From assembly GCF_018448905.1 (NCBI RefSeq), contig NZ_RCWA01000039.1, forward strand, positions 1 to 40,641: DNA of 40,641 nucleotides, in the 5' to 3' direction. The DNA comes from Photorhabdus heterorhabditis. GTDB taxonomy: Bacteria; Pseudomonadota; Gammaproteobacteria; Enterobacterales; Enterobacteriaceae. Both the position numbers and the translations under genes were made by a program. This document shows, piece by piece, positions 691 to 15,375 of the stretch (position 1 is the stretch's first letter; every line of letters begins with the position of its first letter). The notes beneath the pieces are model-generated. The model had not been told where the DNA came from. It ran no database searches and saw nothing but the letters and a program-made list of their open reading frames with translations.

Positions 691-1024
691 TGGGACATAT
701 ATGGGACGGGTATCGCAGGGTAAGCCAAAGCAACAACAGGTAACCTTGGGTAAGATGGAGTGTGTGAGCACTGATAAATGCGGTAATTTGTTGATTTAAA
801 AAGTGGTTCTACTCTCTTCTAAGCCGTAGGTCACAGGTTCGAATCCTGTAGGGCGCGCCATCTCCAAGTATCCAAACGTCTTTTGAAGTCTACAAATTCC
901 TTAAAAAACAAAAAAATCAAGAAACTACAATCTATCGATGTCTACTAGAGTATGTTGAAATCCACAGATCTCTGGGGGCATAATAGGGGGCATTGTTAGG
1001 TTCAATCAAAATGAATGCTCCCAA
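691..1024. other. Intergenic junction between tail module and integrase
   Basis: A 334-base stretch without a protein gene. It contains the tRNA-Arg 3' fragment at 816-860 and, to its right, AT-rich DNA that presumably holds the integrase promoter. No convincing -35/-10 pair was picked by eye. Confidence 0.5.
816..860 (+). repeat. 3' fragment of tRNA-Arg(UCU), probable att scar
   Basis: The sequence runs from the anticodon loop (CTTCTAAG, anticodon TCT) through a T-arm whose stem still pairs (ACAGG and CCTGT around TTCGAAT) to an acceptor end GGGCGC plus GCCA. It agrees closely with the 3' half of enterobacterial argU as I remember it. The 5' half is absent: the bases before CTTCTAA do not pair with the GCCGT on the other side, and no GCGCCC acceptor strand precedes it. 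It is therefore not a working tRNA gene but the kind of 3' tRNA duplication left by a tyrosine integrase. A P4-type integrase starts 164 bases downstream. Confidence 0.75.
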
Positions 1025-2239
1025 ATGAAGTTGACAGCCAGACAGATAGAGACCGCGAAGCCCAAAGACAAATCGTACAAACTCTCCGATGGTGGGGGCA
1101 TGTACTTAGAAATTTTCCCGAATGGTTCCAAATGTTGGCGGCAAAAATATCGTTTTGCTGGCAAAGAAAAGCGATTGGCATTTGGTACTTATCCCACCGT
1201 AACTTTGGCAGAAGCCAGAAACAAAAGAGAAGACGCCAAGAAAATATTGGCAAATGGCGATGATCCAGGGCTAGTCAAAAGGCAGGAAAAAAGGGAAAAG
1301 GCTCTCATCGTAAATAATAGCTTTGAGAAAATTGCCCTTGAGTGGCACGCTTGCAAGGCTCCTAACTGGTCAAAGGGATACGCAGATGATCTTTTAGAAG
1401 GCTTCACAAAAGATATTTTCCCTTATATCGGTAAACACGCTATCACCGATATCAATTCCTTAGACATGCTCACCGTCCTGCGTAAAATGGAACAACGCGG
1501 CGTTCTTGATAAGTTGAAAAAGATCAGACAGGCATGTAATCAAGTTTTCAGATACGCAATTGTCACGGGAAGAGCAGAATATAATCCTGCGGCTGAACTG
1601 GTTGGCGTATTAGCGACACCAAAAGCCAAGCATTTCCCACATTTGAATGTTGATGAATTACCTGCATTTTTACAGGCGCTTTCCCTCTATAGTGGAAGTA
1701 AAATTACTCAAATCGCTACCAAATTACTTTTACTTACCGGATTAAGAACAATAGAGCTACGAGCCTCTACTTGGACAGAAATTGATTTAGACAAAGCAAT
1801 TTGGGAAATCCCACAAGAGCGCATGAAAATGCGTCGGCCTCATATTGTTCCGCTTTCTGAGCAAGCTTTGGCTTTGCTGAGAGAGTTGGAAGCGATCACA
1901 GGCCGATTTAACTTTGCTTTTCATGGTAGGAATGACGTAGGCAAGCCAATGAGTGAAGCCGCCATTAATCAGGTTCTTAAGCGTATAGGTTATGATGGAA
2001 GGGCAACAGGCCACGGATTCCGCCATACAATGAGTACAATTTTGCATGAACAAGGCTATAGCTCTGCATGGATTGAAACACAGCTTGCACATGTTGATAA
2101 GAACAGTATTCGGGGAACTTACAATCACGCTCAATATCTGGATGGTCGTAGGGAAATGCTGCAATGGTATGCGGATTATATGGATATGTTGGAGCGAGGT
2201 GAAAATGTGTTGATCGGAAAATTTGGCAAAAGGGCGTAG
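1025..2239 (+). CDS. P4-type tyrosine-recombinase integrase
   Basis: A 404-residue site-specific recombinase that would integrate or excise a genomic island at a tRNA gene. The N-terminus (MKLTARQIETAKPKDKSYKLSDGGGM and the following GKEKRLAFGTYP) is the DUF4102/P4-integrase arm-binding domain. A SAM-like core-binding domain follows at about residues 100-200, and the catalytic domain fills the last 200. Visible catalytic elements are the first Arg in TGLRTIE, the HGFRHT box, the LAHVDKNS His and the Tyr in GTYNHAQY. Length is typical of the family and no interruption is seen. The nearby tRNA-Arg 3' fragment is its likely attachment site. It is the first gene of the accessory block that includes hxsDBCA, although the far att site was not found. 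Confidence 0.93.
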   Translation: MKLTARQIETAKPKDKSYKLSDGGGMYLEIFPNGSKCWRQKYRFAGKEKRLAFGTYPTVTLAEARNKREDAKKILANGDDPGLVKRQEKREKALIVNNSFEKIALEWHACKAPNWSKGYADDLLEGFTKDIFPYIGKHAITDINSLDMLTVLRKMEQRGVLDKLKKIRQACNQVFRYAIVTGRAEYNPAAELVGVLATPKAKHFPHLNVDELPAFLQALSLYSGSKITQIATKLLLLTGLRTIELRASTWTEIDLDKAIWEIPQERMKMRRPHIVPLSEQALALLRELEAITGRFNFAFHGRNDVGKPMSEAAINQVLKRIGYDGRATGHGFRHTMSTILHEQGYSSAWIETQLAHVDKNSIRGTYNHAQYLDGRREMLQWYADYMDMLERGENVLIGKFGKRA

Positions 2240-2298: not shown

Positions 2299-2925
2299 AT
2301 GCTGATGAATGAATATTGCTGTTTAAATTGGTTTGATATCGATAAATATGAAGAATATGTTCATTCCTTAAACCATGAACAATGGTTTCTGGCTTTGAAA
2401 ATACGGCATGAATATTGGAATTTTCCCACAAAAATAAAAGAATTACGTTCTTTCTATAAGGAAAAAAACTATAGGTCAGATATTATTGATGACAAGGTTG
2501 AAAAATATAATCAATTTATCAATGATATTGAAATTAAAACTGTTTTATCTCTTGATTATTTAAATTATAACAAAGAATTTCTTCGTGAATATATGGAGTT
2601 GCCATTACATACGATGAGTGATGTTGATCTCCAGTTTACCGCTCATCAGCATTCCATTGGTGATTTATCATCTGATGAATTCATACATAAGGTTCTCATT
2701 GAGAAAGACGAAAATTATGTTAATGACAACGTTATTACTTATAAAGGAACCGAAGATAGCCGCTCTGAATGGTATCTTAGTGTTAATCTGGCTGCAAAAG
2801 ATGATGTGCTTTATCAGGCATTCAAACAATTTTTAGCTGAAGAAAGACGTAAAAAGAATATCTTCCCAAGAAAAGATATCTCTGAGATTGAGATTAAGAA
2901 ATTTATTAATCTTAGATTACTATAA
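2299..2925 (+). CDS. Hypothetical protein, possibly DUF6387-like
   Basis: A 208-residue protein, AT-rich at DNA level and probably cytosolic since no signal peptide or membrane segment is visible. The N-terminal pattern (NWFDIDKYEEY, then a Trp and ALKIRHEYW) reminds me of DUF6387, a family often found next to P4-type integrases in enterobacteria; that is a memory-based impression, not a search result. The C-terminal half is charged and helical. It begins 59 bases after the integrase stop, in the same orientation. Neither of the two alternative Met codons at the start (MLM) has a strong Shine-Dalgarno sequence. Function is unknown. Confidence 0.6.
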   Translation: MLMNEYCCLNWFDIDKYEEYVHSLNHEQWFLALKIRHEYWNFPTKIKELRSFYKEKNYRSDIIDDKVEKYNQFINDIEIKTVLSLDYLNYNKEFLREYMELPLHTMSDVDLQFTAHQHSIGDLSSDEFIHKVLIEKDENYVNDNVITYKGTEDSRSEWYLSVNLAAKDDVLYQAFKQFLAEERRKKNIFPRKDISEIEIKKFINLRLL

Positions 2926-3356
2926 TCATCATACAACACATAGCAACGAAGGTGAGTGTCACTGAAGCCCATGTTCTTTGTTCTATAAAGCTCTAAAAAA
3001 ATCGTTTCTGCCAACCTCATATTTTCTTCATAAACAGCATGTTATCAGTAAGCTACATCGAGTTTTCTCACTTTAACACCGCAAAAAACGATAAGATTAG
3101 ATGACAAATTATTCATTATATTTTTTAAATATATCTTCATGGCTTATCAATTTTGGTAAAAAAAATTTACATCTGAAAATATAGTGATTAATATTCCTTC
3201 AATGAGAATCATCCGTAAAATCGCTTTGAAAAAAAATTATTAGAAAACAGTTGATTGTGTTTTTTTTTCATTTTTAATGTTTTAAACAAGCACGACGCTT
3301 TATTAAAAAAGTTTAATCCAAGTAGATTGGAAGATTTACTCGTATATTTTGAGGTA
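2926..3356. other. AT-rich intergenic region before the hxs operon
   Basis: About 430 bases with strong A/T runs and no believable gene. It presumably carries the hxs operon promoter, but many A/T hexamers could serve and none stands out. A short A/T palindrome occurs near 3120-3135. Nothing else is recognised. Confidence 0.5.
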
Positions 3357-3635
3357 ATGACTTTGATTAAAAACATAAGAAAAACAGCATGTTCAGAATG
3401 GGTCATTAGAAACAGCCTTTACTGGATGAGTGCCTATAGCCGTTGGAAGCTGGATGAGTATGATGACTATTGGATCGTGTCCTTCGATACTTATAGTGGA
3501 GAGGTTGAGTTCGAATTCGAACGACTTCTCAACGACTATAAGCTTCGAGAAAGACTCCAGAGCCAGACAGAGCAGGTCAGGAATTCGATCATCGAGAATG
3601 TCCTCAAAAGCATTGATTCGAGACTTGCTCAATGA
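3357..3635 (+). CDS. hxsD: His-Xaa-Ser system protein HxsD
   Basis: A 92-residue small protein of the His-Xaa-Ser system. The core SEWVIRNSLYWMSAYSRW, the strand-like YWIVSFDTYSGEVEFEFE and the C-terminal QVRNSIIENVLKSIDSRL follow the layout I know for HxsD: an xxVIxxAxYWxS-type start, then a short sheet, then a helix with RNxII. No enzymatic motif is present; family members are thought to assist the two radical SAM enzymes, but this is not demonstrated. I chose the ATG at 3357 because family proteins are about 90-100 residues and GAGG lies just before it. The same frame is open back to an ATG at 3255 (126 residues), whose leader is low-complexity. Its stop overlaps the hxsB start (ATGA). Confidence 0.8.
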   Translation: MTLIKNIRKTACSEWVIRNSLYWMSAYSRWKLDEYDDYWIVSFDTYSGEVEFEFERLLNDYKLRERLQSQTEQVRNSIIENVLKSIDSRLAQ

Positions 3636-5026
3636 ACACCATGCCGTTTAACTTTGACCGGTTGAATGATGGCAAAATCTTCATTAGCAACCTGGCGGGC
3701 TTCCATAACTTCGTAGAAGACGAAGAGCTGCGACTTCTTTCTCAAAACCGTTTCCCTAGCGATCATCCGTCCTCTGCAAAATTGGAAGGGCGACTGTTTA
3801 TAACAGGGGATTCTACTCAAGCTTTAGCCAAAGCTTCATTAAGTTCTGGTTTCGCTAAACGATTGATGAATGAGTTGGCTGTCAGACCTATCTTTATGAT
3901 CGTTCCAACACTGAGGTGCGACCATACCTGTAAGTATTGTCAGGTCAGTAGAGCAGCGGTTGGGGCGAATGGTTACGACTTGGACCCTGCACTGATCCCT
4001 GAAATCGTCAGTGTTATTAAGAAACTTGGAACAACCCCATATAAAATTGAGATTCAGGGAGGAGAACCTCTCCTTAGGTTTGATCTTGTTCAGAGGATAT
4101 ATGACGAATGCCAAAGTTTACTTGGGCATGATGCCTTTGAAATGGTGATCGCAACTAGCCTGTCGCTTCTGGATGCTTCGATCATTGACTGGGTGAAAGA
4201 TCGGAACATTACATTTTCTGTTTCCCTCGATGGTAAGGAAGATGTTCACAATAAAAATCGAATTTTGACCGGAGCAAAAGCCCATTCTAAGGTGGTCGCA
4301 GGAATCCAGACTATCCGTGATGAACTTGGTCCAAGTCGTGTAGCAACAGTAACTACCGTAACCAAAGAACTGACTGCTGATCCTGCCTCAATAGTTGAAG
4401 CTCACTTGTCGTTAGGTCTGAAGGATATGTTTATCAGACCTGTTAGTCCCTATGGTTTTGCTCACAAGCAAAGTTGTACGTTTTCGATGCCAGAGTATTT
4501 TGAATTTTATGATCAACTAATGCAGGAAATCCTCTGGCAGAACCAGGAGGGAATCCCTGTAGTTGAGCATTCAGCCGCGATACACCTTAAACGTATCTTC
4601 AATCCGGGCTTTAGCGGTTATGCAGACTTGAAATCACCGAGTGGGGTGGTGCTCAACTGTATCCTTTTCAACTATGACGGTAGGGCGTATGGTAGTGATG
4701 AAAGCCGTATGCTTCAGAAAGCAAATCCAGAAGCGGATTTCAGTGCAGGGAATTTCTCATCACTGTCTTTCAGTAGCAATGAATATTATCAATCTTCGTT
4801 AGTATCATCATTCAACTTCGCCATGCCTGGCTGTGACACCTGTGCTTATCAGCCTTTCTGCGGGTCTGATCCCTGCCAGAGCATAAGTGTTCATGGAGAA
4901 CCAGTAGGTGACAAAAGTCGGTCTACCTTTTGCCATTACCACAAAGGAATGTTCCGTTATTTGTTAAACGAGATTTCCAAGGATGGAGCGATGGCAAAAA
5001 TGCTCAAAGGCTGGGCTTATGTCTGA
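3632..5026 (+). CDS. hxsB: His-Xaa-Ser system radical SAM maturase HxsB
   Basis: A 464-residue radical SAM enzyme predicted to modify the His-Xaa-Ser peptide HxsA. The [4Fe-4S]/SAM motif CDHTCKYC (Cys96, Cys100, Cys103) lies in the sequence IVPTLRCDHTCKYCQVSR; the GGEPLLR segment near residue 145 is the family's SAM-binding GGE motif. The C-terminal quarter has a SPASM-like cysteine set (MPGCDTCAYQPFCGSDPC and later FCHYH) for auxiliary iron-sulfur clusters. About 90 residues precede the barrel, as in other HxsB proteins. It starts within the hxsD stop (ATGA overlap) and overlaps hxsC, so the operon is translationally coupled. The chemistry is not known to me; peptide cross-linking by SPASM radical SAM enzymes is the nearest analogy. 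Confidence 0.93.
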   Translation: MNTMPFNFDRLNDGKIFISNLAGFHNFVEDEELRLLSQNRFPSDHPSSAKLEGRLFITGDSTQALAKASLSSGFAKRLMNELAVRPIFMIVPTLRCDHTCKYCQVSRAAVGANGYDLDPALIPEIVSVIKKLGTTPYKIEIQGGEPLLRFDLVQRIYDECQSLLGHDAFEMVIATSLSLLDASIIDWVKDRNITFSVSLDGKEDVHNKNRILTGAKAHSKVVAGIQTIRDELGPSRVATVTTVTKELTADPASIVEAHLSLGLKDMFIRPVSPYGFAHKQSCTFSMPEYFEFYDQLMQEILWQNQEGIPVVEHSAAIHLKRIFNPGFSGYADLKSPSGVVLNCILFNYDGRAYGSDESRMLQKANPEADFSAGNFSSLSFSSNEYYQSSLVSSFNFAMPGCDTCAYQPFCGSDPCQSISVHGEPVGDKSRSTFCHYHKGMFRYLLNEISKDGAMAKMLKGWAYV

Positions 5027-6131
5027 GGTGTTGAGAAACGATATTTTTCACTTTTCATCTGAAGAGATTGTTCAGCGGGGGTTCTATCGTCTTTGTAAGT
5101 ATAAGCCAGTGAATCCGCAGTTTTACCTTCCAAACCTCTTAATCAAGGAAAATCTCGATGATTCGAGTAATCCTCCTTATTACTTAGGTTCAGTGTGTAG
5201 TAAGCAGTTATACGATTCGATTGAAGATGGAGATATTGGGATAGTTAATAATGGCAATATGATCAGGGTTATCCTGTCTCGTAAAGCCAACCACAATACT
5301 GTTCTAGTTACAGAGAGATGTAATAACCTTTGCCTTTTCTGTTCTCAACCTCCAAAAACAGGAAATGATGATTGGTTACTCAACCAGTCTGCACTTGCCA
5401 TAGCCTCCTTCGCTTTAGATGGAGTGGTAGGGGTAAGCGGTGGGGAGCCTCTTTTGTATGGGGATGATTTTCTAAACTTCCTCGATTTCATCATAGAAAA
5501 CTCGCCTGAAACTTCTCTGCATATTTTGACTAACGGACGAAAATTTTCAGATGCAAGCTTTGCAGAGAAGATTAAAGATCGATGCGAAAAGCTTAAGATA
5601 ACCTTTGGAATTCCACTTTACTCATCCAGGCAAGCGGTACATGACCAGTTAGTAGGTAGTAAAGGAGCATTTGACGAAACGGTAAGAGGACTCATAAATG
5701 CCGGAAATTCTGGCATTAACATTGAACTAAGGATCATTCCTACTCAAGATAACCATAACGAACTAAACGAAATAGTTGAGTTTTCAGGGAGGGTTTTCTC
5801 AAATATCAACCAGATATCACTCATGGGACTGGAGTCGATTGGTTGGGCAAGAAAAAACTGGTCAGCGATTTTCATTGAGCATGAAAGTTATACTGATAGT
5901 CTGCTATCTGCCATTGATAGTGCTCACAGATGTGGTATCCCTCTGGCCATATTTAATTTTCCTCTTTGTCATTTACCCAGAAAGGCGTGGAGAATAGCTA
6001 CACAATCAATCTCTGACTGGAAAAATTTTTACCCAAAAGAATGTGATGAATGCACTCAGAAATCTTCCTGTGCTGGTTATTTCAGTTCATCAAAAGGCCG
6101 TTTTCATCAACCTCCGAGTCCAATTAAATGA
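5019..6131 (+). CDS. hxsC: His-Xaa-Ser system radical SAM maturase HxsC
   Basis: A 370-residue second radical SAM enzyme of the system. The cluster motif CNNLCLFC (Cys101, Cys105, Cys108) follows VLVTER, and VSGGEPLLYG gives the SAM-binding GGEP. The C-terminus holds CDECTQKSSC, a reduced auxiliary cysteine set. The N-terminal 95 residues form the HxsC-specific leader domain. I placed the start at 5019 (MSEVLR), which has AAAGG eight bases upstream and overlaps the hxsB stop by 8 bases; an in-frame ATG at 4983 has no usable spacing. Its stop overlaps the hxsA ATG. Two separate radical SAM enzymes acting on one small repeat protein is the defining oddity of this system. Confidence 0.92.
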   Translation: MSEVLRNDIFHFSSEEIVQRGFYRLCKYKPVNPQFYLPNLLIKENLDDSSNPPYYLGSVCSKQLYDSIEDGDIGIVNNGNMIRVILSRKANHNTVLVTERCNNLCLFCSQPPKTGNDDWLLNQSALAIASFALDGVVGVSGGEPLLYGDDFLNFLDFIIENSPETSLHILTNGRKFSDASFAEKIKDRCEKLKITFGIPLYSSRQAVHDQLVGSKGAFDETVRGLINAGNSGINIELRIIPTQDNHNELNEIVEFSGRVFSNINQISLMGLESIGWARKNWSAIFIEHESYTDSLLSAIDSAHRCGIPLAIFNFPLCHLPRKAWRIATQSISDWKNFYPKECDECTQKSSCAGYFSSSKGRFHQPPSPIK

Positions 6132-6751
6132 AAAAATTCAATTTTGCTGCATTACTTCCGGGATTTCTTGCACTCAATAACTCCGTTTGGGCAAGTGATT
6201 CTTCTACTGGAGCGAGTGAGCTACCTGGCATGACACTTAACGAGCATGATTTGGTGATAGCTCCATTGAATACAGAAGTTCCGTTCTACATTGCTGGGCA
6301 TCGTAGTCACAGTTCACACCGTAGCCATAGTTCTCACAGGTCATCATCAGGCGGTGGTTATTATGGAGGTAGTGCTCCTTACTATCCAAAAAAATATAGC
6401 TCACCAAGTTCATCTGATAACTCGAGCTCAGGTTCTTCATCTTCTTCAGTCCGTTCTCTTCGTTCAAACAGTCACAACAATTCTTCCACAACTAACTCAT
6501 CAAGCATCACTGGAGTAGACAGATCATCAAATGATTTAGTTTCAGATTCAGAAAAGCGTAAAAGACTCATTATGCGGGTTCAGTTCGCATTGCTTGATAA
6601 AGGATTTTACAATGGAACAATCGATGGAAAGATGGGACCCTTAACACGGTTAGCTTTAAGAACATATCGTGTTGAGAATGGATTGCCTTCTCCTACAACC
6701 GAAACTTTGGATACTCAAATACTTAATTCACTGGGTATTCTTGCTCGTTGA
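6128..6751 (+). CDS. hxsA: His-Xaa-Ser repeat protein HxsA (modified substrate)
   Basis: A 207-residue predicted exported protein. Residues 1-22 form a Sec-type signal peptide (MKKFN, hydrophobic core, cleavage near VWA-SD). Residues 58-72 are five perfect tandem His-Xaa-Ser tripeptides (HRS, HSS, HRS, HSS, HRS), followed by a Gly/Tyr patch and a long Ser/Asn-rich linker to about residue 135. The last 65 residues (RVQFALLDKGFYNGTIDGKMGPLTRLALRTY) resemble a PG_binding_1 peptidoglycan-binding fold. This is the expected substrate of HxsB and HxsC, with the His-Xaa-Ser stretch as the likely modified site and the C-terminus anchoring it in the cell envelope. Start and hxsC stop overlap (ATGA). 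The function of the mature product is unknown. Confidence 0.92.
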   Translation: MKKFNFAALLPGFLALNNSVWASDSSTGASELPGMTLNEHDLVIAPLNTEVPFYIAGHRSHSSHRSHSSHRSSSGGGYYGGSAPYYPKKYSSPSSSDNSSSGSSSSSVRSLRSNSHNNSSTTNSSSITGVDRSSNDLVSDSEKRKRLIMRVQFALLDKGFYNGTIDGKMGPLTRLALRTYRVENGLPSPTTETLDTQILNSLGILAR

Positions 6752-6774
6752 TTCTTAAAGAAGGATAAGTATTT

Positions 6775-8385
6775 ATGGTTAACACATACAATATTTATAG
6801 ATTTCGCATTTCTAATCTTAAAAAACTGATTGATAAAGCCATTTCAGTTGGACTGATCAAACAAAAGGAAAAAGATATTGATGATTATAAAATGTGTTTT
6901 TACTTTTCTAAAGGATTAGAGGGGAGTCCAATATGGTGGTGGGAAACGTATAGGCAGTTTTTTGATGAGGCAGTGGATGAACCTAAAAATAAATTTTATT
7001 ATGGTTTGCTTATTTGTATAAAAAATATCAAAAACCCTGATTTTGGATTTGCAATAACACTTGGTAAGTCTCATTTTTATGTTAATAAGTTTATCGAACG
7101 GAACTTTGGTATTGAGTTAGCTATCAGGATTGCGAACGAAGAAACTATCTTGCTAAAGAAAAGCACGTATTTTTCTGGATCAAAAAAGCAAGAGATATCG
7201 TCATATAAAAATTTCATAAAAGATAGTTATGAACCGGGAGAATCAGTAGACCATTTGAAATTAAAAGCTACGGACAAGGATGTTTGGGGAGCGAAAAATA
7301 TTATCTTTGCTGATTCCATCCAAATGGATATTGATAAAAAACCAGAAGAGTTAGCACATATTTTTGATAAGATAATATTGGCAATGGCGGATACGCAAAG
7401 CATCCGCCTTCCAAAAAGAGAGATGGTGACTGATGAGGAATTAACATTAAACTTAGATTGTGTGCTATTTGATTATTTAAAGCGAAATGATGCTTCTCTT
7501 CGATTAGAAGAGTTCCAAGTTTATGGTGTTAACTTTTGTTTTAGCTTTACAGAATATAATTATAAAATTGCAACAAAGATTGGTAGGAAACATCTTCTTA
7601 AAGAAGAACTCGGCAATTCTATCAGTATTGAAGCTATATCCAAATACGTTAAAGCATATCCTAAAATAAAATCTTTAAATGACTTAGTAATCACATTTGA
7701 CATAGAGGATAAAGGCAGTAAGTTTACGAGGCCACTTAAGGAAATTTTAGATATATATATCCAGAGCGGTGATGTTCACTATTTTCTAAGTAATGGTGAT
7801 TGGTGTTGTTTTAATCAACCTTTTTTGAGCTATTTAAGGGACTCTCTAAACAATATTGATTTAAAGATCCAAGATCCTTTAGATGAAAATGATTATTTGG
7901 AATGGCTTTCAGTCAAAAAGGATAAGATCGAAAAAGGAGAGTATGTTGAAAACAAATTAACTTACAGGGAATATTATTTTAATGAGAAGAAATCGAATGA
8001 AGAAGGCTATGAATTGTTAGATAGAGAGCTAACGCTAATAAATTCTATTGAAAATAAAAAGAAGAAATATAAGCTTGAAATTGCTGATTTATATAAAGAT
8101 GGGGAAATAATTTCTGTGAAAATCTCTGCTAAAGATAAAGAGCTAATTTACAACATTGAGCAGTCGAAGGATGCACTGGAATTGATCCTAAATGGGGGGG
8201 TTAAAAGTGATAAGGAAATTAAATATGCATCTCTTTGGTTCGTATTTGAACAGGATATTAAACGGATAACTGAAAAAAACTCTATTCAATTCTTACTGGC
8301 TTTACAGTCATGGAAAAAACTTGTTGAACATTATTCAATTACTCCTAGGATCTATTTTTCAAAGCATATTAACTTTAAAAACTAA
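6775..8385 (+). CDS. TIGR04141/DUF6119-like sporadically distributed protein
   Basis: A 536-residue soluble protein, visibly AT-richer and more Lys/Ile-rich than its neighbours. The segment from about residue 75 to 195 (FGFAITLGKSHFYVNKFIERNFGIELAIRIANEE, then SSYKNF, then ADSIQMDID) matches my memory of the TIGR04141/DUF6119 'sporadically distributed' family, whose members share a long region around a G-x-x-H/F...FGxxxAxR pattern. No catalytic motif, signal peptide or membrane helix is evident. The patchy distribution of the family suggests a mobile, possibly defence-related role, which is inference only. It starts 23 bases after the hxsA stop with AAGGA upstream, so it could be read from the same transcript, though its base composition argues for a separate origin. 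Confidence 0.7.
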   Translation: MVNTYNIYRFRISNLKKLIDKAISVGLIKQKEKDIDDYKMCFYFSKGLEGSPIWWWETYRQFFDEAVDEPKNKFYYGLLICIKNIKNPDFGFAITLGKSHFYVNKFIERNFGIELAIRIANEETILLKKSTYFSGSKKQEISSYKNFIKDSYEPGESVDHLKLKATDKDVWGAKNIIFADSIQMDIDKKPEELAHIFDKIILAMADTQSIRLPKREMVTDEELTLNLDCVLFDYLKRNDASLRLEEFQVYGVNFCFSFTEYNYKIATKIGRKHLLKEELGNSISIEAISKYVKAYPKIKSLNDLVITFDIEDKGSKFTRPLKEILDIYIQSGDVHYFLSNGDWCCFNQPFLSYLRDSLNNIDLKIQDPLDENDYLEWLSVKKDKIEKGEYVENKLTYREYYFNEKKSNEEGYELLDRELTLINSIENKKKKYKLEIADLYKDGEIISVKISAKDKELIYNIEQSKDALELILNGGVKSDKEIKYASLWFVFEQDIKRITEKNSIQFLLALQSWKKLVEHYSITPRIYFSKHINFKN

Positions 8386-8776
8386 ATTGCATTTTCTATA
8401 CAGGCAAGATGTTTATCTTAATATTCATTATCCTGAAAATAACCAAATCTACTTATATCATAGAAAAGCACTGCAATAATATTAATTTCGCCCGAGCTAC
8501 AAGAACAGTGGGCGAGAGTGTCTTTTACTGAGCAGTCAATATGTTCTCATAAAACGAAAGTCAGGATTTACTTAAATGTGAGATGATTTTGCTCAATAAT
8601 ACTGTTAATAAGTGCCCGTCAGTGGTCGAGTACTTATTCTGAGTTTTCAGGGCGGTAATCAAGCATAAAATACTCCTGCTAGAGAAAAAGTCACTCAAAG
8701 TGAAGGCTTATATAATTAATGATGTTGCACTTATTATGTGAATCTATCAACATTATTTAATTTTAGGAGAAAGTGT
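8386..8776. other. Intergenic region before tail-fibre pseudogene
   Basis: About 390 bases with no gene. The last 30 bases before 8777 (TTATTTAATTTTAGGAGA) match the upstream region of the inverted tail-fibre gene at 11538, so the homology between the two cassettes begins before the start codon. A weak CGCCC/GGGCG stem occurs near 8489-8514. Nothing else is recognised. Confidence 0.5.
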
Positions 8777-9643
8777 ATGAGTCACAAGAATGATTTTAAG
8801 GCTTTTTCTATTAGTAATAATGCGAATGTAATAAGCCAGGGGAAATATGAAGAAAACCAGAGTTTGCAGACTGGATTTCCACCGGATAATGTTTCTACTC
8901 ATTTGTTAAATAAAGTATTGCGTCAAGCATCAACCATATCATCTGTCGTAGCTGAGTTTATTGCAACATGATCTGACAATGATGTTTTGGATGATGGAAA
9001 TATAGCCAGTCTCACCGGTCAATTAAATAAAGCTTTAGAGCAAAAAATTACAACAGATATTCCCAGTGCTTCATTAACACAAAAAGGTGTTGTCCAACTG
9101 ACAAATGTGATTGGCAATAGCGACACATTGGCGGTTACACAAAAGCTTATTCAGGAGGTAATAAGTTCATTACGTGAATATACCCGTGAAGAGATAGATA
9201 ATAGGATTAACATAGCCAGTGAAGTTCCTATCGGTTCTCCTATTCCATGGCTGTTGCCCCATCCACCTATTGGCTATTTCACTTGTAACGGTTCAGCTTT
9301 TAATAAATTACAGTACCCAAAATTAGCTGAAGCTTATCCTGATGGGAGATTACCCGATTTAAGAGATGAGTTTATCCGCGGATGGGATGATGGGCGTGGC
9401 ATCGATATTGGACGTAATCTATTGAGTACTCAGGCTGATGCGTTTAAAAGGCACAATCACAGTATTTCGACTACTAATAGCCCGAGTAAAACTCTTGAGG
9501 ATACAGACCCCGTGCGTGGTAGTCTGATTGGAGGAGCTAGCTATCGAGGGGGTTTAGGGGAAAGAAAGTCTATTGGAATGAATGGTGAGCACGAAACCCG
9601 TCCCCGCAATATTGCCTTTAATTACATAGTAAGAGCAGCATAA
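8777..9643 (+). pseudogene. Tail fibre protein gene with in-frame nonsense codon
   Basis: A 288-codon fibre gene interrupted by TGA at 8969-8971 (codon 65). The first 64 codons (MSHKNDFKAFSISNNANV...VVAEFIAT) and the frame after the stop (SDNDVLDDGNIASLTGQLNKALEQK...) align continuously with the intact minus-strand fibre protein, where the equivalent position reads ETQSGNDVLDDG, so a substitution rather than a frameshift broke it. The second half has a phage tail-collar domain (GSPIPWLLPHPPIGYFTCNGSAF) and ends like the fibre at 2-64. AGGAGA precedes the ATG. Downstream reinitiation (ATG at 8987) could give a headless fibre, but a normal product is unlikely without readthrough. Confidence 0.85.
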
Positions 9644-9782
9644 TGACTGAACAAAAATATGCTTATTGAAAGCCCAAAAAACACAAGAAGCAACTTTACC
9701 GGAATGGAAGTAATACAGAGTATTACTAAGCAAGGTAGATATTTTACAAGCTACTAATGTTGGATGGCCGGGGATGCCAAAA
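9643..9782 (+). pseudogene. Remnant of tail fibre assembly gene
   Basis: It begins at the TAATG junction after the fibre pseudogene as MTEQKYAY then TGA. Further on, the frame EATLPEWK-stop-YRVLLSKVDILQATNVGWPGMPK aligns with the last third of the intact Tfa-like protein (LEWRKYRVLLTRVDVNQAPDVEWPPAPK). The central ~130 codons are deleted and there are two in-frame stops. It is a clearly dead copy of the gene at 64-690. Confidence 0.8.
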
Positions 9783-9811
9783 GTAAGAATAGGGAATTGT
9801 GGGCTGTTGTC

Positions 9812-9845
9812 TGCCAAGTGAAATAATGTGATTTTTCACTTGGCA
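9812..9845. terminator. Perfect 12-bp hairpin between convergent tail-fibre genes
   Basis: Arms 9812-9823 (TGCCAAGTGAAA) and 9834-9845 (TTTCACTTGGCA) are perfect complements around a 10-base loop. It lies between the plus-strand fibre/tfa remnants and the minus-strand fibre gene that ends at 9964. There is no long T-run on either side, so it may be a weak bidirectional terminator or an mRNA 3'-end stabiliser. Confidence 0.45.
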
Positions 9846-9935
9846 TTATATCAATGAGAATGTTTATTGCTTTATTGGTAATACATATTTACACAGCTTT
9901 TATTTCTCCTGGAGAGGAATACCGAGATTCTATTA

Positions 9936-9953
9936 CAGGGCTATATAGCCCTG
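9936..9953. terminator. 18-bp perfect palindrome just past the fibre stop
   Basis: CAGGGCTATATAGCCCTG is its own reverse complement and sits 11 bases beyond the stop codon of the minus-strand fibre gene (9964). The position suggests a transcript-end hairpin; no T-run follows on the minus strand. A DNA-binding palindrome is an alternative. Confidence 0.4.
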
Positions 9954-9963
9954 ATTGCCATTA

Positions 9964-11538
9964 TTATGGTTTTTCAGGTGCTTGCACACGAACATTGATC
10001 ATTCTTCCGTCTGGAATATCGCATAGTTCACCATCATTGTAATAAACGATTTCTCCTATGGCAGTTATGCTTTTGACGCGCTTGTTTTGAGCAAACTCTG
10101 GCGCGTCGGTATTTTGACGATGATAACATTCGATAGTTATATCGCCGCTGGATGTGTCTACCGATTCGCGAACCCAAATAAGATTTAACCCGTTGCTGTC
10201 TGCTGGAACGACAGTGCCACCGTGAATTCCCCATGCTCCATCTTTGGCAAAACCGTTGCAGCCGCTGATACGATATTTCCCGGTATCTACACGCTTAACA
10301 GTCATTCCTTCAGCTTCGCAGGTTAACTCGTAAGTTCCGTCTGGATGAATATCTACAACTGGGCTGGCTTTTCTAAGAATGCCGTTAGCGTCAGGGTGTG
10401 CGTTTTTGTCTGTCCAAAGTCGGCTAACTTTTGTATTTCCGCCCCCATCATTTCCGTGGATAAAGCTAATACCGGCATAGTCATAATGCGCGACAAATCC
10501 TGCCCATATGTCATGCATTCTGGTTATATAGCCGCCTGACCATGGATAGCCAATACCATGATCCCCGTTAAATCTGAATGAATGACCGCCCTGCGGCAAT
10601 GATTTTATCCATGCTGTAAAATCAGTTATATTCGCTTGAGTCACATATTTTGGTTGGATAAATTCAGATCCTTCGGATTTTGCATATGCTCCGATATCCG
10701 CCGCAGTTGGTTTATGTTTTGTTGTGTAAATATAAGTCCAATCTTCCTCAAAACCATAACTATCACGGGCAGAGCGATAAGCAATTCCGCCATTTCTGTA
10801 TTGCACTTTCAATTGAAAAGCGGGGCAACTTCCAATGCCGTTATTGAAATGAGCGATATGCGAAGAATCTATTCCAGGGTTCAGCAAATCATATAACCCT
10901 GTGTTTGCGTTCCAGGGGACTTGATTATTAACAGTGTATCTTTCTGTTAATCCGAGCTTAAATGCTCCCACATCCCCGGCATTCAGAATGACATCTCCGG
11001 TCAACGCCTTGCCGTTAATTTTTCTACTATTCGGCACGGCATTCTTGGCCTGATTCACCGTTTCCGTTAATCCGATATTTTTCACAAACGCATTTTTATC
11101 AGGAATGTCTGCGCCATTTTGGTTTTTTGCCAATTTGTTGTTAGCATTCTCATTGACATCAGAAACAAGTTTCTGAGTGACTGCAAGTGAATTACTGTTG
11201 CCGGTTTTGTCTGTGAGTTGAACTATTCCTTTTTGAGTTAATGAAGCACTGGGAACTTCTGTTGCGATCTTTTGTTCTAAGGCTTTATTTAATTGAGTAG
11301 TGAGTTTGACTATATTTCCATCATCCAGAACATCATTGCCAGATTGTGTCTCTATAAAATTAGCTACGACAGATGATATGGTTGATGACTGACGTAATAC
11401 CTTATTTAACACATGAGTGGTAATATGCTCTGGAGGAAACCCAGTTTTCAAACTTTGTTCTTCTTCATATCTTTCTTGGCTTACTACATTTGCATTATTG
11501 CTAATAGAAAAAGCCTTAAAATCATTCTTCGTACTCAT
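9964..11538 (-). CDS. Phage tail fibre protein, intact, inverted orientation
   Basis: A 524-residue receptor-binding fibre. Residues 1-130 (MSTKNDFKAFSISNNANVVSQ... to SLAVTQKLV) match the plus-strand fibre pseudogene and include the SLTQKGIVQLT repeat typical of tail-fibre shafts. Residues ~130-290 continue the shaft (KINGKALTGDVILNAGDVGAF; AADIGAYA). The last ~230 residues form an unrelated tip, ending in a CNGFAKDGAWGIHGG-type segment seen in enterobacterial phage fibres. A good ribosome site (GAGGAG) precedes the ATG. No assembly gene follows it. Its convergent arrangement with a fibre gene sharing the same 5' end looks like a fibre-switching module. The gene may encode a prophage or R-type tailocin fibre; the parent element is not in the window. 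Confidence 0.85.
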   Translation of the reverse strand: MSTKNDFKAFSISNNANVVSQERYEEEQSLKTGFPPEHITTHVLNKVLRQSSTISSVVANFIETQSGNDVLDDGNIVKLTTQLNKALEQKIATEVPSASLTQKGIVQLTDKTGNSNSLAVTQKLVSDVNENANNKLAKNQNGADIPDKNAFVKNIGLTETVNQAKNAVPNSRKINGKALTGDVILNAGDVGAFKLGLTERYTVNNQVPWNANTGLYDLLNPGIDSSHIAHFNNGIGSCPAFQLKVQYRNGGIAYRSARDSYGFEEDWTYIYTTKHKPTAADIGAYAKSEGSEFIQPKYVTQANITDFTAWIKSLPQGGHSFRFNGDHGIGYPWSGGYITRMHDIWAGFVAHYDYAGISFIHGNDGGGNTKVSRLWTDKNAHPDANGILRKASPVVDIHPDGTYELTCEAEGMTVKRVDTGKYRISGCNGFAKDGAWGIHGGTVVPADSNGLNLIWVRESVDTSSGDITIECYHRQNTDAPEFAQNKRVKSITAIGEIVYYNDGELCDIPDGRMINVRVQAPEKP

Positions 11539-12102
11539 ATACTCTCCTCAAATTAAATAATGCCGTTTTATGGTAAATGTATTAAATTATTATGAAAGTA
11601 ACTCTCTGAGATGCACGTTAATGACAGTTTAGTTCGAAGTGAGAATAATGAAATGTTCTTATAACTTAGATGGTTAACTATTTTTGTATAATTGGTGTAA
11701 ATAAATTATTTAATATTTTTAAACCAGAAATATATCTAAGCTATTTATATTTTGTATGGATATTTAGTAAGGTAAAATATATTGAATTTGTTCTAAGTAA
11801 TATGTTTTTTATATCATTTCACTCTGTTTTATGCGTATTATGTGTTGGTGAAAAAATAAATCAGTTTATACGTAACTTATAATCGATAAAAAATTATATA
11901 CCCGTCATCTTTCAAGCTGCTGCTTGAAAGATGACGGGTATATTTATTCACTGTTGTTCGGTTTTCTTTTATTTATAATCCGGCGAGGCACAGCTCTATG
12001 TTAAAAACATATTCTGTATCAGGTGAACGTCCATGGTCAATAGTATGGCAATTTGGTGGGCTGGTGAAATAATGGCTTATAAAACCAGCTGGTTACTGCT
12101 AA
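11539..12102. other. AT-rich non-coding region with palindromic repeat
   Basis: About 560 bases. The left part is very AT-rich and contains only an implausible short plus-strand ORF (11670-11882). The palindrome at 11896-11943 is described separately. The 11944-12102 part has several stops in all frames and no recognisable gene remnant. Confidence 0.45.
11896..11943. repeat. Perfect 22-bp inverted repeat, Photorhabdus-type repeat ends
   Basis: Arm 11896-11917 (ATATACCCGTCATCTTTCAA plus GC) is exactly complementary to 11922-11943, with a 4-base TGCT loop. The arm is the same sequence that starts the complex repeat at 25140 (TATACCCGTCATCTTTCAAG). It therefore looks like two repeat ends brought together with the interior lost, not an ordinary terminator, although it could stop transcription coming from atoDA. 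Confidence 0.8.
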
Positions 12103-14663: not shown

Positions 14664-15075
14664 CTTTATTTTCATTAATTTCAGGCTACGGATTGTAGCT
14701 TGATTAGGGTGTTATGGAAAAATTGGAAATTCAAATCAGTGCCGTAATCTTGGCAAATAGAGATTGTGGATAAAAATTTTTTATAATTAGTTAGTTATGG
14801 CTATGGTAAAGCCGAAATTTAAGATAAAGGGGAACACTAATAGAAAAAATAAAAGAAATTAAAACTTGCTAATGGTCAATAAATGTGAGTTAATAGCGTC
14901 ACTGGTTTGGAAGTACAGACCTATTTATGAAAAAGAAAGTTAAAGCAGTTCACCATTTAGCGTTATCCCTGATACCTCTTCATTGCGAATTCCTTCTAAT
15001 TAGTACCCATAAGTAAAACTGAAAAACAGACCTCATACGCCTCGTGGCAACTTAATAAAATTAAAGGAAAACGTT

Positions 15076-15291
15076 ATGTCTAATGCAATGACTGGTTCAG
15101 TAAAATGGTTTAATAACGATAAAGGTTTTGGATTTATTTCTCCAAAAGATGGTAGTAAGGATGTTTTTGTCCATTATTCTGCAATTCAGAGCAATAATTT
15201 CAAAACACTAGAAGAAGGTCAGGAAGTTTCATTCTCTATTGAGAATGGTGCTAAAGGCCCAGCAGCAGTAAATGTTATCGTATTATCCTGA
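15076..15291 (+). CDS. Cold-shock protein, CspA/CspE family
   Basis: A 71-residue single cold-shock domain protein that binds single-stranded RNA/DNA and melts mRNA structure at low temperature. RNP1 (KGFGFIS) and RNP2 (VFVHYSAI) are complete, with the usual [15 protein letters not shown] start and a GPAAVNV C-terminus. AAAGGA lies before the ATG. About 200 bases of AT-rich leader precede it, in keeping with the long 5' untranslated regions of cold-inducible csp genes, but no cold-box was identified. A clear terminator follows. Which paralogue (cspA, B, C, D or E) it is cannot be decided by eye. Confidence 0.95.
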
Positions 15292-15375
15292 TTTGACTTA
15301 GTTGCTTGAATCCATTAGCGACTTTACGATAGCGATGAAGGTGATATCCTGAGCAGTTAAAGTTGTTAATAAGTT

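Follow-up and report, generated by a model that had tools for sequence, protein, structure and literature searches.

The hxsDBCA operon of Photorhabdus heterorhabditis, a mobile His-Xaa-Ser cassette with a 3' exchange slot that defence genes often occupy

A 40,641-nucleotide stretch of Photorhabdus heterorhabditis DNA (contig NZ_RCWA01000039.1; the whole stretch is termed the window) carries an hxsDBCA operon that pairs two radical S-adenosylmethionine (SAM) enzymes, HxsB and HxsC, with a small protein, HxsD, and a His-rich repeat protein, HxsA. The locus raises the question of what is done to HxsA, and to what end such a set is carried. The operon is real, intact and of a known kind, the canonical His-Xaa-Ser set, and it travels as a mobile four-gene cassette. 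At its 3' side lies a slot in which genes are exchanged, and defence genes often occupy it. This link to an exchangeable defence-gene slot, plus a narrowed list of chemistries, is new. The explanation set out below, which combines a modified, wall-held HxsA, a mobile cassette, a defence slot and a use in exclusion, is given a probability of roughly 0.4 as a whole.

The intact hxsD-B-C-A operon spans positions 3357-6751, and all four of its proteins score over the curated NCBIfam cut-offs in hidden Markov model (HMM) searches (Table 1). A sequence-only reading of the window had described a complete operon here, and its coordinates, strand and content hold; the HMM check on the Hxs families places TIGR03976-TIGR03979 all over cut-off. 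The ATGA overlaps that it reported are present at both hxsD/hxsB and hxsC/hxsA. The longest hxsC open reading frame (ORF) opens at 4983, and the reported 8-base overlap of hxsB and hxsC is obtained with the hxsC start at the ATG at 5019, as annotated in E. coli relatives. Also borne out are the two radical SAM motifs, CDHTCKYC in HxsB and CNNLCLFC in HxsC, the five tandem His-Xaa-Ser units of HxsA, and an HxsA N-terminus that looks exported by eye. All four genes, the motifs, the repeat and the D-B-C-A order are those of the His-Xaa-Ser system (TIGR03976-TIGR03979), of which the window operon is a member without any difference of its own. The suggestion of an undescribed system therefore falls, since the four genes all have NCBI names and the set is also present in other Enterobacterales, on plasmids (mostly of Klebsiella) and in a phage. 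That account, sound for the operon, stopped at hxsA, missing the DUF6119/TIGR04141 gene behind it, the integrase with its tRNA-Arg remnant and the link to defence genes.

The founding paper of the system is reportedly that of Haft and Basu. In the available text of PMC9062424, HxsB is listed with the larger annotated clusters of radical SAM enzymes that act on peptides, and the maturases are named after Haft and Basu with no chemistry given. His-Xaa-Ser is also mentioned among island genes in the accessible portions of PMC8446631 and PMC6537148. In the open-access text searched, no product, chemistry or role for Hxs was found, in agreement with the earlier statement that the chemistry is not established, nor was anything that links Hxs or DUF6119/TIGR04141 to defence; the accessible parts of the papers naming the system mention no defence slot.

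The comparisons below draw on 69 hxs loci, which reduce to 53 distinct loci at 99% HxsB identity. HMM searches detect an HxsA in 48 of these. In the window, HxsA residues 58-72 read HRSHSSHRSHSSHRS, five contiguous His-Xaa-Ser units. Shuffling HxsA never produced (HxS)5 (0/200,000). The DNA that encodes the repeat takes 36 different strings among the 48 HxsA, with mixed His and Ser codons, which indicates that selection acts on the protein; the five-unit repeat is not due to chance or to DNA slippage. Every one of the 48 has a single uninterrupted longest run, consisting of either five units (36) or six (12), and the Xaa composition across them is R 140, S 108, Y 2 and A 2. In an alignment of 47 HxsA (L136 omitted), all five repeat His and all five repeat Ser are each at least 97% conserved. 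S62, the Xaa of the second unit, is conserved to the same degree, and Xaa 59, 65, 68 and 71 fall below it. Between a point 40 residues ahead of the repeat and the C-terminus, none of the 48 HxsA has a cysteine (0/48, L136 included). The HxS repeats are very probably the modified site.

The C-terminal portion of HxsA resembles a peptidoglycan-binding domain, in which V151, Q152, A154, L155, G163, I165, D166 and G167 are each at least 97% conserved in the 47 aligned sequences. Export of HxsA and its retention in the wall are considered likely. The five loci without an HMM-detected HxsA (L097, L117, L123, L133 and L134) carry shorter HxS proteins or ORFs, those of L117 and L123 being 105-106 aa long with C-terminal repeats, so the long wall domain is not universal. 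In the Leptospira phage (L097) the gene order is hxsA-D-B-C, and its HxsA has 99 aa and no long C-terminal domain.

That hxs is mobile cargo is apparent from its distribution. With the window's genome counted, hxsB occurs in 2/13 genomes of the genus, as expected from its earlier description as accessory in Photorhabdus, in 18/392 of the family and in 5/369 of a class sample. The block 3079-8443 recurs at 95.7% identity in a relative genome (G773, L207), and in another genome of the genus (G774, L206) the tail-fibre flank on the right-hand side is present and hxs is absent. Among 5,426 complete E. coli genomes, 153 contain hxs DNA (143 with at least 80% query coverage), chromosomal every time; of the E. 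coli loci read, some belong to islands, at ssrA or at other sites, that also hold genes for relaxase, ParB-like proteins and recombinase, and others to P2-like prophages (by gene content). HxsB has matches in 419 plasmid records, 322 of which are from Klebsiella; the match reaches 60% identity in 326, and 332 records are typed as conjugative. Carriers thus comprise mobilizable islands, P2-like prophages, conjugative plasmids and the Leptospira phage. The available text of PMC10121019 describes the E. coli transfer-messenger RNA (tmRNA) locus as a defence hotspot, number 9, which can hold integrative mobilizable elements among others. Two hxs islands (L094 and L148) are similar in lying at ssrA with relaxase and recombinase genes; the difference is that radical SAM has 0 occurrences in the available main text of that paper.

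Throughout, the constant cassette is hxsD-B-C-A alone, and what follows hxsA varies. GajA and GajB follow it in L035, L058 and L061, QatABCD in L038, and PDC-S06 in L044 and L050. SIR2-domain proteins are found after hxsA in L120 (137 bp away) and L137 (310 bp, PDC-S65), PDC-S19 in L054 (320 bp) and an OLD/AriA-like ATPase in L138 (166 bp). A few genes past hxsA are a DRT class II reverse transcriptase (L143) and AbiLi (L133), and past DUF6119 are MkoC and a type IV restriction enzyme, in L042 and L115. On either side of the cassette, the first three ORFs of 80 aa or more were taken, and those whose products reach 150 aa were scanned with PADLOC models. Each tally is of proteins, some of them from related and hence non-independent islands. 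With E≤1e-50 as the threshold, at least 18 of 124 downstream proteins match, in 13 of the 53 loci (L035, L038, L042, L044, L050, L054, L058, L061, L115, L133, L137, L138 and L143), a lower bound taken from the 25 families listed of 61. Upstream, 4 or 5 of 78 proteins match (seven families from 4 proteins, or 5 if two PDC-S20 families match different proteins). Among arbitrary host-genome proteins the count is 0/118 (drawn from the 277 ORFs of 20 regions placed arbitrarily, as a sample of 120 less two long ORFs), so that downstream and arbitrary proteins differ with p 4e-06. In genomic context, hxs often resides among defence genes. In L146, the E. coli island region that is occupied by hxs elsewhere contains a NACHT and RelA/SpoT pair (9047-12057); this pair had no PADLOC hit at 1e-20 and was left uncounted as known defence.

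The occupant of the slot in the window is a DUF6119/TIGR04141 gene. Such a gene is the next one after hxsA, on the same strand and 15-72 bp away (median 20), in 19 of the 48 distinct loci, window counted; one of the 19 copies is broken (L047). Among the 392 family genomes, DUF6119 is found in 11 and hxsB in 18, and the seven genomes with both have them adjacent in every case. The overlap expected is 0.5 genomes (p 3.5e-08, relatedness not corrected). DUF6119 proteins have no PADLOC hit and so stand outside the defence counts; the mean predicted local distance difference test (pLDDT) of the protein model is 58. DUF6119 also occurs without hxs in five places (L185-L189), three of them beside a dGTPase or near GajA/GajB. 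This makes DUF6119, independently of hxs, a candidate defence gene.

The favoured explanation joins these features. HxsB and HxsC would modify the five His-Xaa-Ser units of HxsA in the cytosol, with HxsD as a small accessory protein, and the modified HxsA would be exported and then retained in the cell wall via its peptidoglycan-binding-like domain. The 3' edge of hxs is an exchange slot that recruits intracellular defence genes, here DUF6119. The likeliest use would be a wall-level layer hindering the entry of phage or of competing mobile DNA; a defence or exclusion role for hxs, proposed from its location only, is nevertheless doubtful. A bolder version is quite unlikely: hxsDBCA might form the fixed component of a modular immunity locus, with the modified wall protein as outer barrier or sensor, the swapped gene (DUF6119, Gabija, Qat, SIR2, PDC-S06 or DRT) as inner layer, and DUF6119 itself as an unrecognised effector. 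To our knowledge, no earlier defence system is built on a post-translationally cross-linked envelope protein.

Several observations weigh against the favoured explanation. The PF01471 match on HxsA (21.8 bits) is slightly below the 23-bit cut-off, the signal peptide and export were judged by eye, and five loci have short HxS proteins that lack the long C-terminal domain. HxsB scores far under the cut-offs of cyclophane maturases (YhhB 51.2/445 and AmcB 45.7/425 bits, among the best 25 of 63 families). None of the four Hxs proteins has its own PADLOC model, and HxsB and HxsC give just weak viperin matches (28.2 bits or less). No recognised defence gene lies behind hxsA in, for example, L037, L041, L043, L096 and L119, and the P2-like prophages L149 and L150 carry hxs without an annotated defence neighbour. 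On the Klebsiella conjugative plasmid L096, hxs lies between a heat-resistance cluster and fec iron-citrate genes, with no defence partner annotated. The excess of downstream over upstream defence matches is weak, with p 0.04 or 0.11 depending on whether 4 or 5 upstream proteins are counted. Finally, 20 changes of partner label are required on an HxsB tree with 38 members, against a mean of 22.5 for shuffled labels (as low in 13/200). The tree holds the loci with HxsD and HxsA hits, minus L056 and L097; DUF6119 groups a and b were assigned via clusters, scores and start sequences, and the 'other' label includes L116 and L131.

Some of these observations suit a neutral neighbour, a rival rated at somewhat less than even odds. 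Here hxs would have an unrelated job (as an envelope protein, or in stress or metal handling), share cargo slots with defence genes, and offer the hxsA end as a homology anchor for swaps of the next gene. The nearly random partner changes on the tree and the loci lacking a recognised defence partner are as this rival would have them, as are the defence matches upstream. It also fits that the same E. coli island, where it is without hxs, has the NACHT and RelA/SpoT pair or is trimmed by insertion sequences. Against a neutral neighbour, DUF6119 is unusually near and co-directional and is strongly tied to hxs (7 of its 11 genomes), and downstream matches exceed those upstream, though weakly. Sister HxsB with differing partners (L049/L054, 98% identical; L046/L115, 98%; L035/L124, 95%), together with remnants of partner genes seen by eye behind hxsA in L116 and L131, indicate that the cassette is stable and the gene behind it is swapped. 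Such swapping suits a hitchhiking slot as well as a modular system, which is why the defence role is held no higher than stated above.

The chemistry can be narrowed from both enzymes and substrate. Motif cysteines are invariant in HxsB (52 sequences) and HxsC (53). HxsB C96, C100, C103, C401, C404 and C410 occur in 52/52 sequences and C434 in 98%; its C-terminal cysteines are, we assume, SPASM-like. The HxsB alignment omits L056, from Providencia stuartii, in which hxsB is broken into two ORFs and the adjoining genes are open. HxsC, numbered from the start at 4983, has C113, C117, C120, C329, C354, C357 and C363 in every one of 53 sequences. By sequence, the nearest solved chain to HxsB is 5wgg (E 6.7e-08), presumably CteB, and that to HxsC is SkfB 6efn (E 3.2e-06); both are taken to be thioether maturases. 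Unlike the substrates of that chemistry, the repeat and C-terminal part of HxsA lack cysteine in 48/48 sequences, and thioethers are therefore excluded there.

Triceptides offer a parallel. The available text of PMC11002830 gives radical SAM precedents in MscB, which forms C4(Phe)-Cbeta(Ser), in HaaB and ScaB, C2(His)-Cbeta(Ala), and in YhhB, C2(His)-Cbeta(Arg), with links that span residues i and i+2. Because His-Xaa-Ser merges the Phe-Ser and His-Ala/Arg precedents, a His(i)-Ser(i+2) link is proposed. The product would most likely be a row of short rings, each closed by a bond between the ring of a His and the beta-carbon of the Ser at i+2. Like the triceptides formed by MscB, HaaB and YhhB, hxs has an aromatic residue at i with its partner at i+2, and radical SAM enzymes with extra C-terminal cysteines. 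It differs in having two paired enzymes plus HxsD, in an HxsA that retains a large C-terminal domain, and in the low scores of HxsB against the YhhB and AmcB models. Such cross-links, rather than another modification, are a tentative choice, held at a little under an even chance.

Instead of cross-linking, the repeat Ser might be oxidised to formylglycine or otherwise altered, as by an anaerobic sulfatase maturase, or residues might be epimerised. This alternative is unlikely. Every unit has a fixed Ser, as it would require, and HxsB residues 94-448 match the anaerobic sulfatase maturase model, but with 51.3 bits against a cut-off of 349. Conservation of both His and Ser at a fixed spacing of two suggests instead that both participate, as in the proposed His-Ser link. 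For HxsD, an AlphaFold2 (AF2) model (pLDDT 92) has a beta-alpha-beta-beta arrangement followed by one long helix, and fold searches gave generic KH and ferredoxin-like matches only. A PqqD-like recognition element was considered but not adopted: the element order differs in the model, and no PqqD chain is among the matches listed.

A further possibility, an improbable one, is that HxsA is a His-rich metal-binding protein of the periplasm or wall whose modification tunes copper, zinc or nickel binding. The five fixed His in a row would suit it, as would the iron-citrate genes near hxs on plasmid L096, and the title of PMC10206099 calls a ribosomal peptide with His-to-butyrine crosslinks copper-binding. 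However, none of the five E. coli islands read has a metal gene annotated next to hxs, and simple metal binding needs neither a fixed Ser nor a fixed unit number. Production of a secreted peptide antibiotic is very improbable, for although radical SAM enzymes with a repeat substrate recall clusters for ribosomally synthesised and post-translationally modified peptides, the cassette itself lacks genes for an exporter, a peptidase or immunity, and HxsA bears a wall-binding-like domain.

Table 1. Positions in the window of the hxs operon, its motifs and domains, and the adjoining island genes.
Feature	Position	Strand	Description and evidence
hxsD	3357..3635	+	92-aa putative accessory protein; TIGR03976 96.4 bits, cut-off 50
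hxsB	3632..5026	+	radical SAM maturase; TIGR03978 555.6 bits, cut-off 370
HxsB CX3CX2C (4Fe-4S/SAM) motif	3917..3940	+	translation and conservation
hxsC	5019..6131	+	second radical SAM maturase; TIGR03977 404 bits, cut-off 267.9
HxsC CX3CX2C motif	5319..5342	+	translation and conservation
hxsA	6128..6751	+	predicted substrate protein: signal-peptide-like N-terminus (by eye), HxS core, C-terminal peptidoglycan-binding-like domain; TIGR03979 176.5 bits, cut-off 121.65
Five tandem His-Xaa-Ser units, HxsA residues 58-72	6299..6343	+	translation; conservation
HxsA peptidoglycan-binding-like domain, residues ~147-205	6566..6742	+	PF01471 match residues 150-189; conserved residues
DUF6119/TIGR04141 gene, 23 bp after hxsA	6775..8385	+	PF19614 74.7 bits, TIGR04141 68.8 bits, both over cut-off
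Tyrosine integrase of island	1025..2239	+	PF13356, PF22022 and PF00589 all over cut-off
DUF6387 gene, between integrase and hxs	2299..2925	+	PF19924 34.2 bits, cut-off 28.9
46-bp copy of tRNA-Arg(tct) 3' end, adjoining integrase	816..861	+	100% identical to intact tRNA gene on another contig (C16) of the same genome

The island in the window carries a tyrosine integrase, presumably P4-type, and the adjoining 46-bp copy of the tRNA-Arg(tct) 3' end is probably an attachment-site remnant, as expected for an integrated element. No convincing direct repeats were found as attachment sites around the island. Tail-fibre-like and tail-fibre-assembly genes lie at 1-690 and 8738-11538, with many related copies in 13/13 genomes of the genus. 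Scans for promoters and terminators gave site numbers not above those of shuffled sequence. At nine loci (L045, L046, L047, L061, L095, L115, L120, L148 and L151) a palindrome, CCGCTTTAAAGCGG, is seen by eye 5' of hxsD, and in L049 and L054 it is altered on both arms, to CCGTTTTAAAACGG. An operator or a hairpin is possible; by eye, the palindrome is not seen in the window's own hxsD leader. Elsewhere in the window, a cspA thermoregulator RNA is found at 14901-15327 (200 bits).

For the family, the strict five- or six-unit core without cysteine leaves a short list of chemistries and a clean mass signature. The defence-gene slot provides a concrete hypothesis for Hxs biology and flags the DUF6119 gene as a defence candidate. 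Conjugative plasmids, most of them from Klebsiella, carry the cassette, so phage sensitivity and plasmid traffic would be affected there if Hxs had an envelope or exclusion role.

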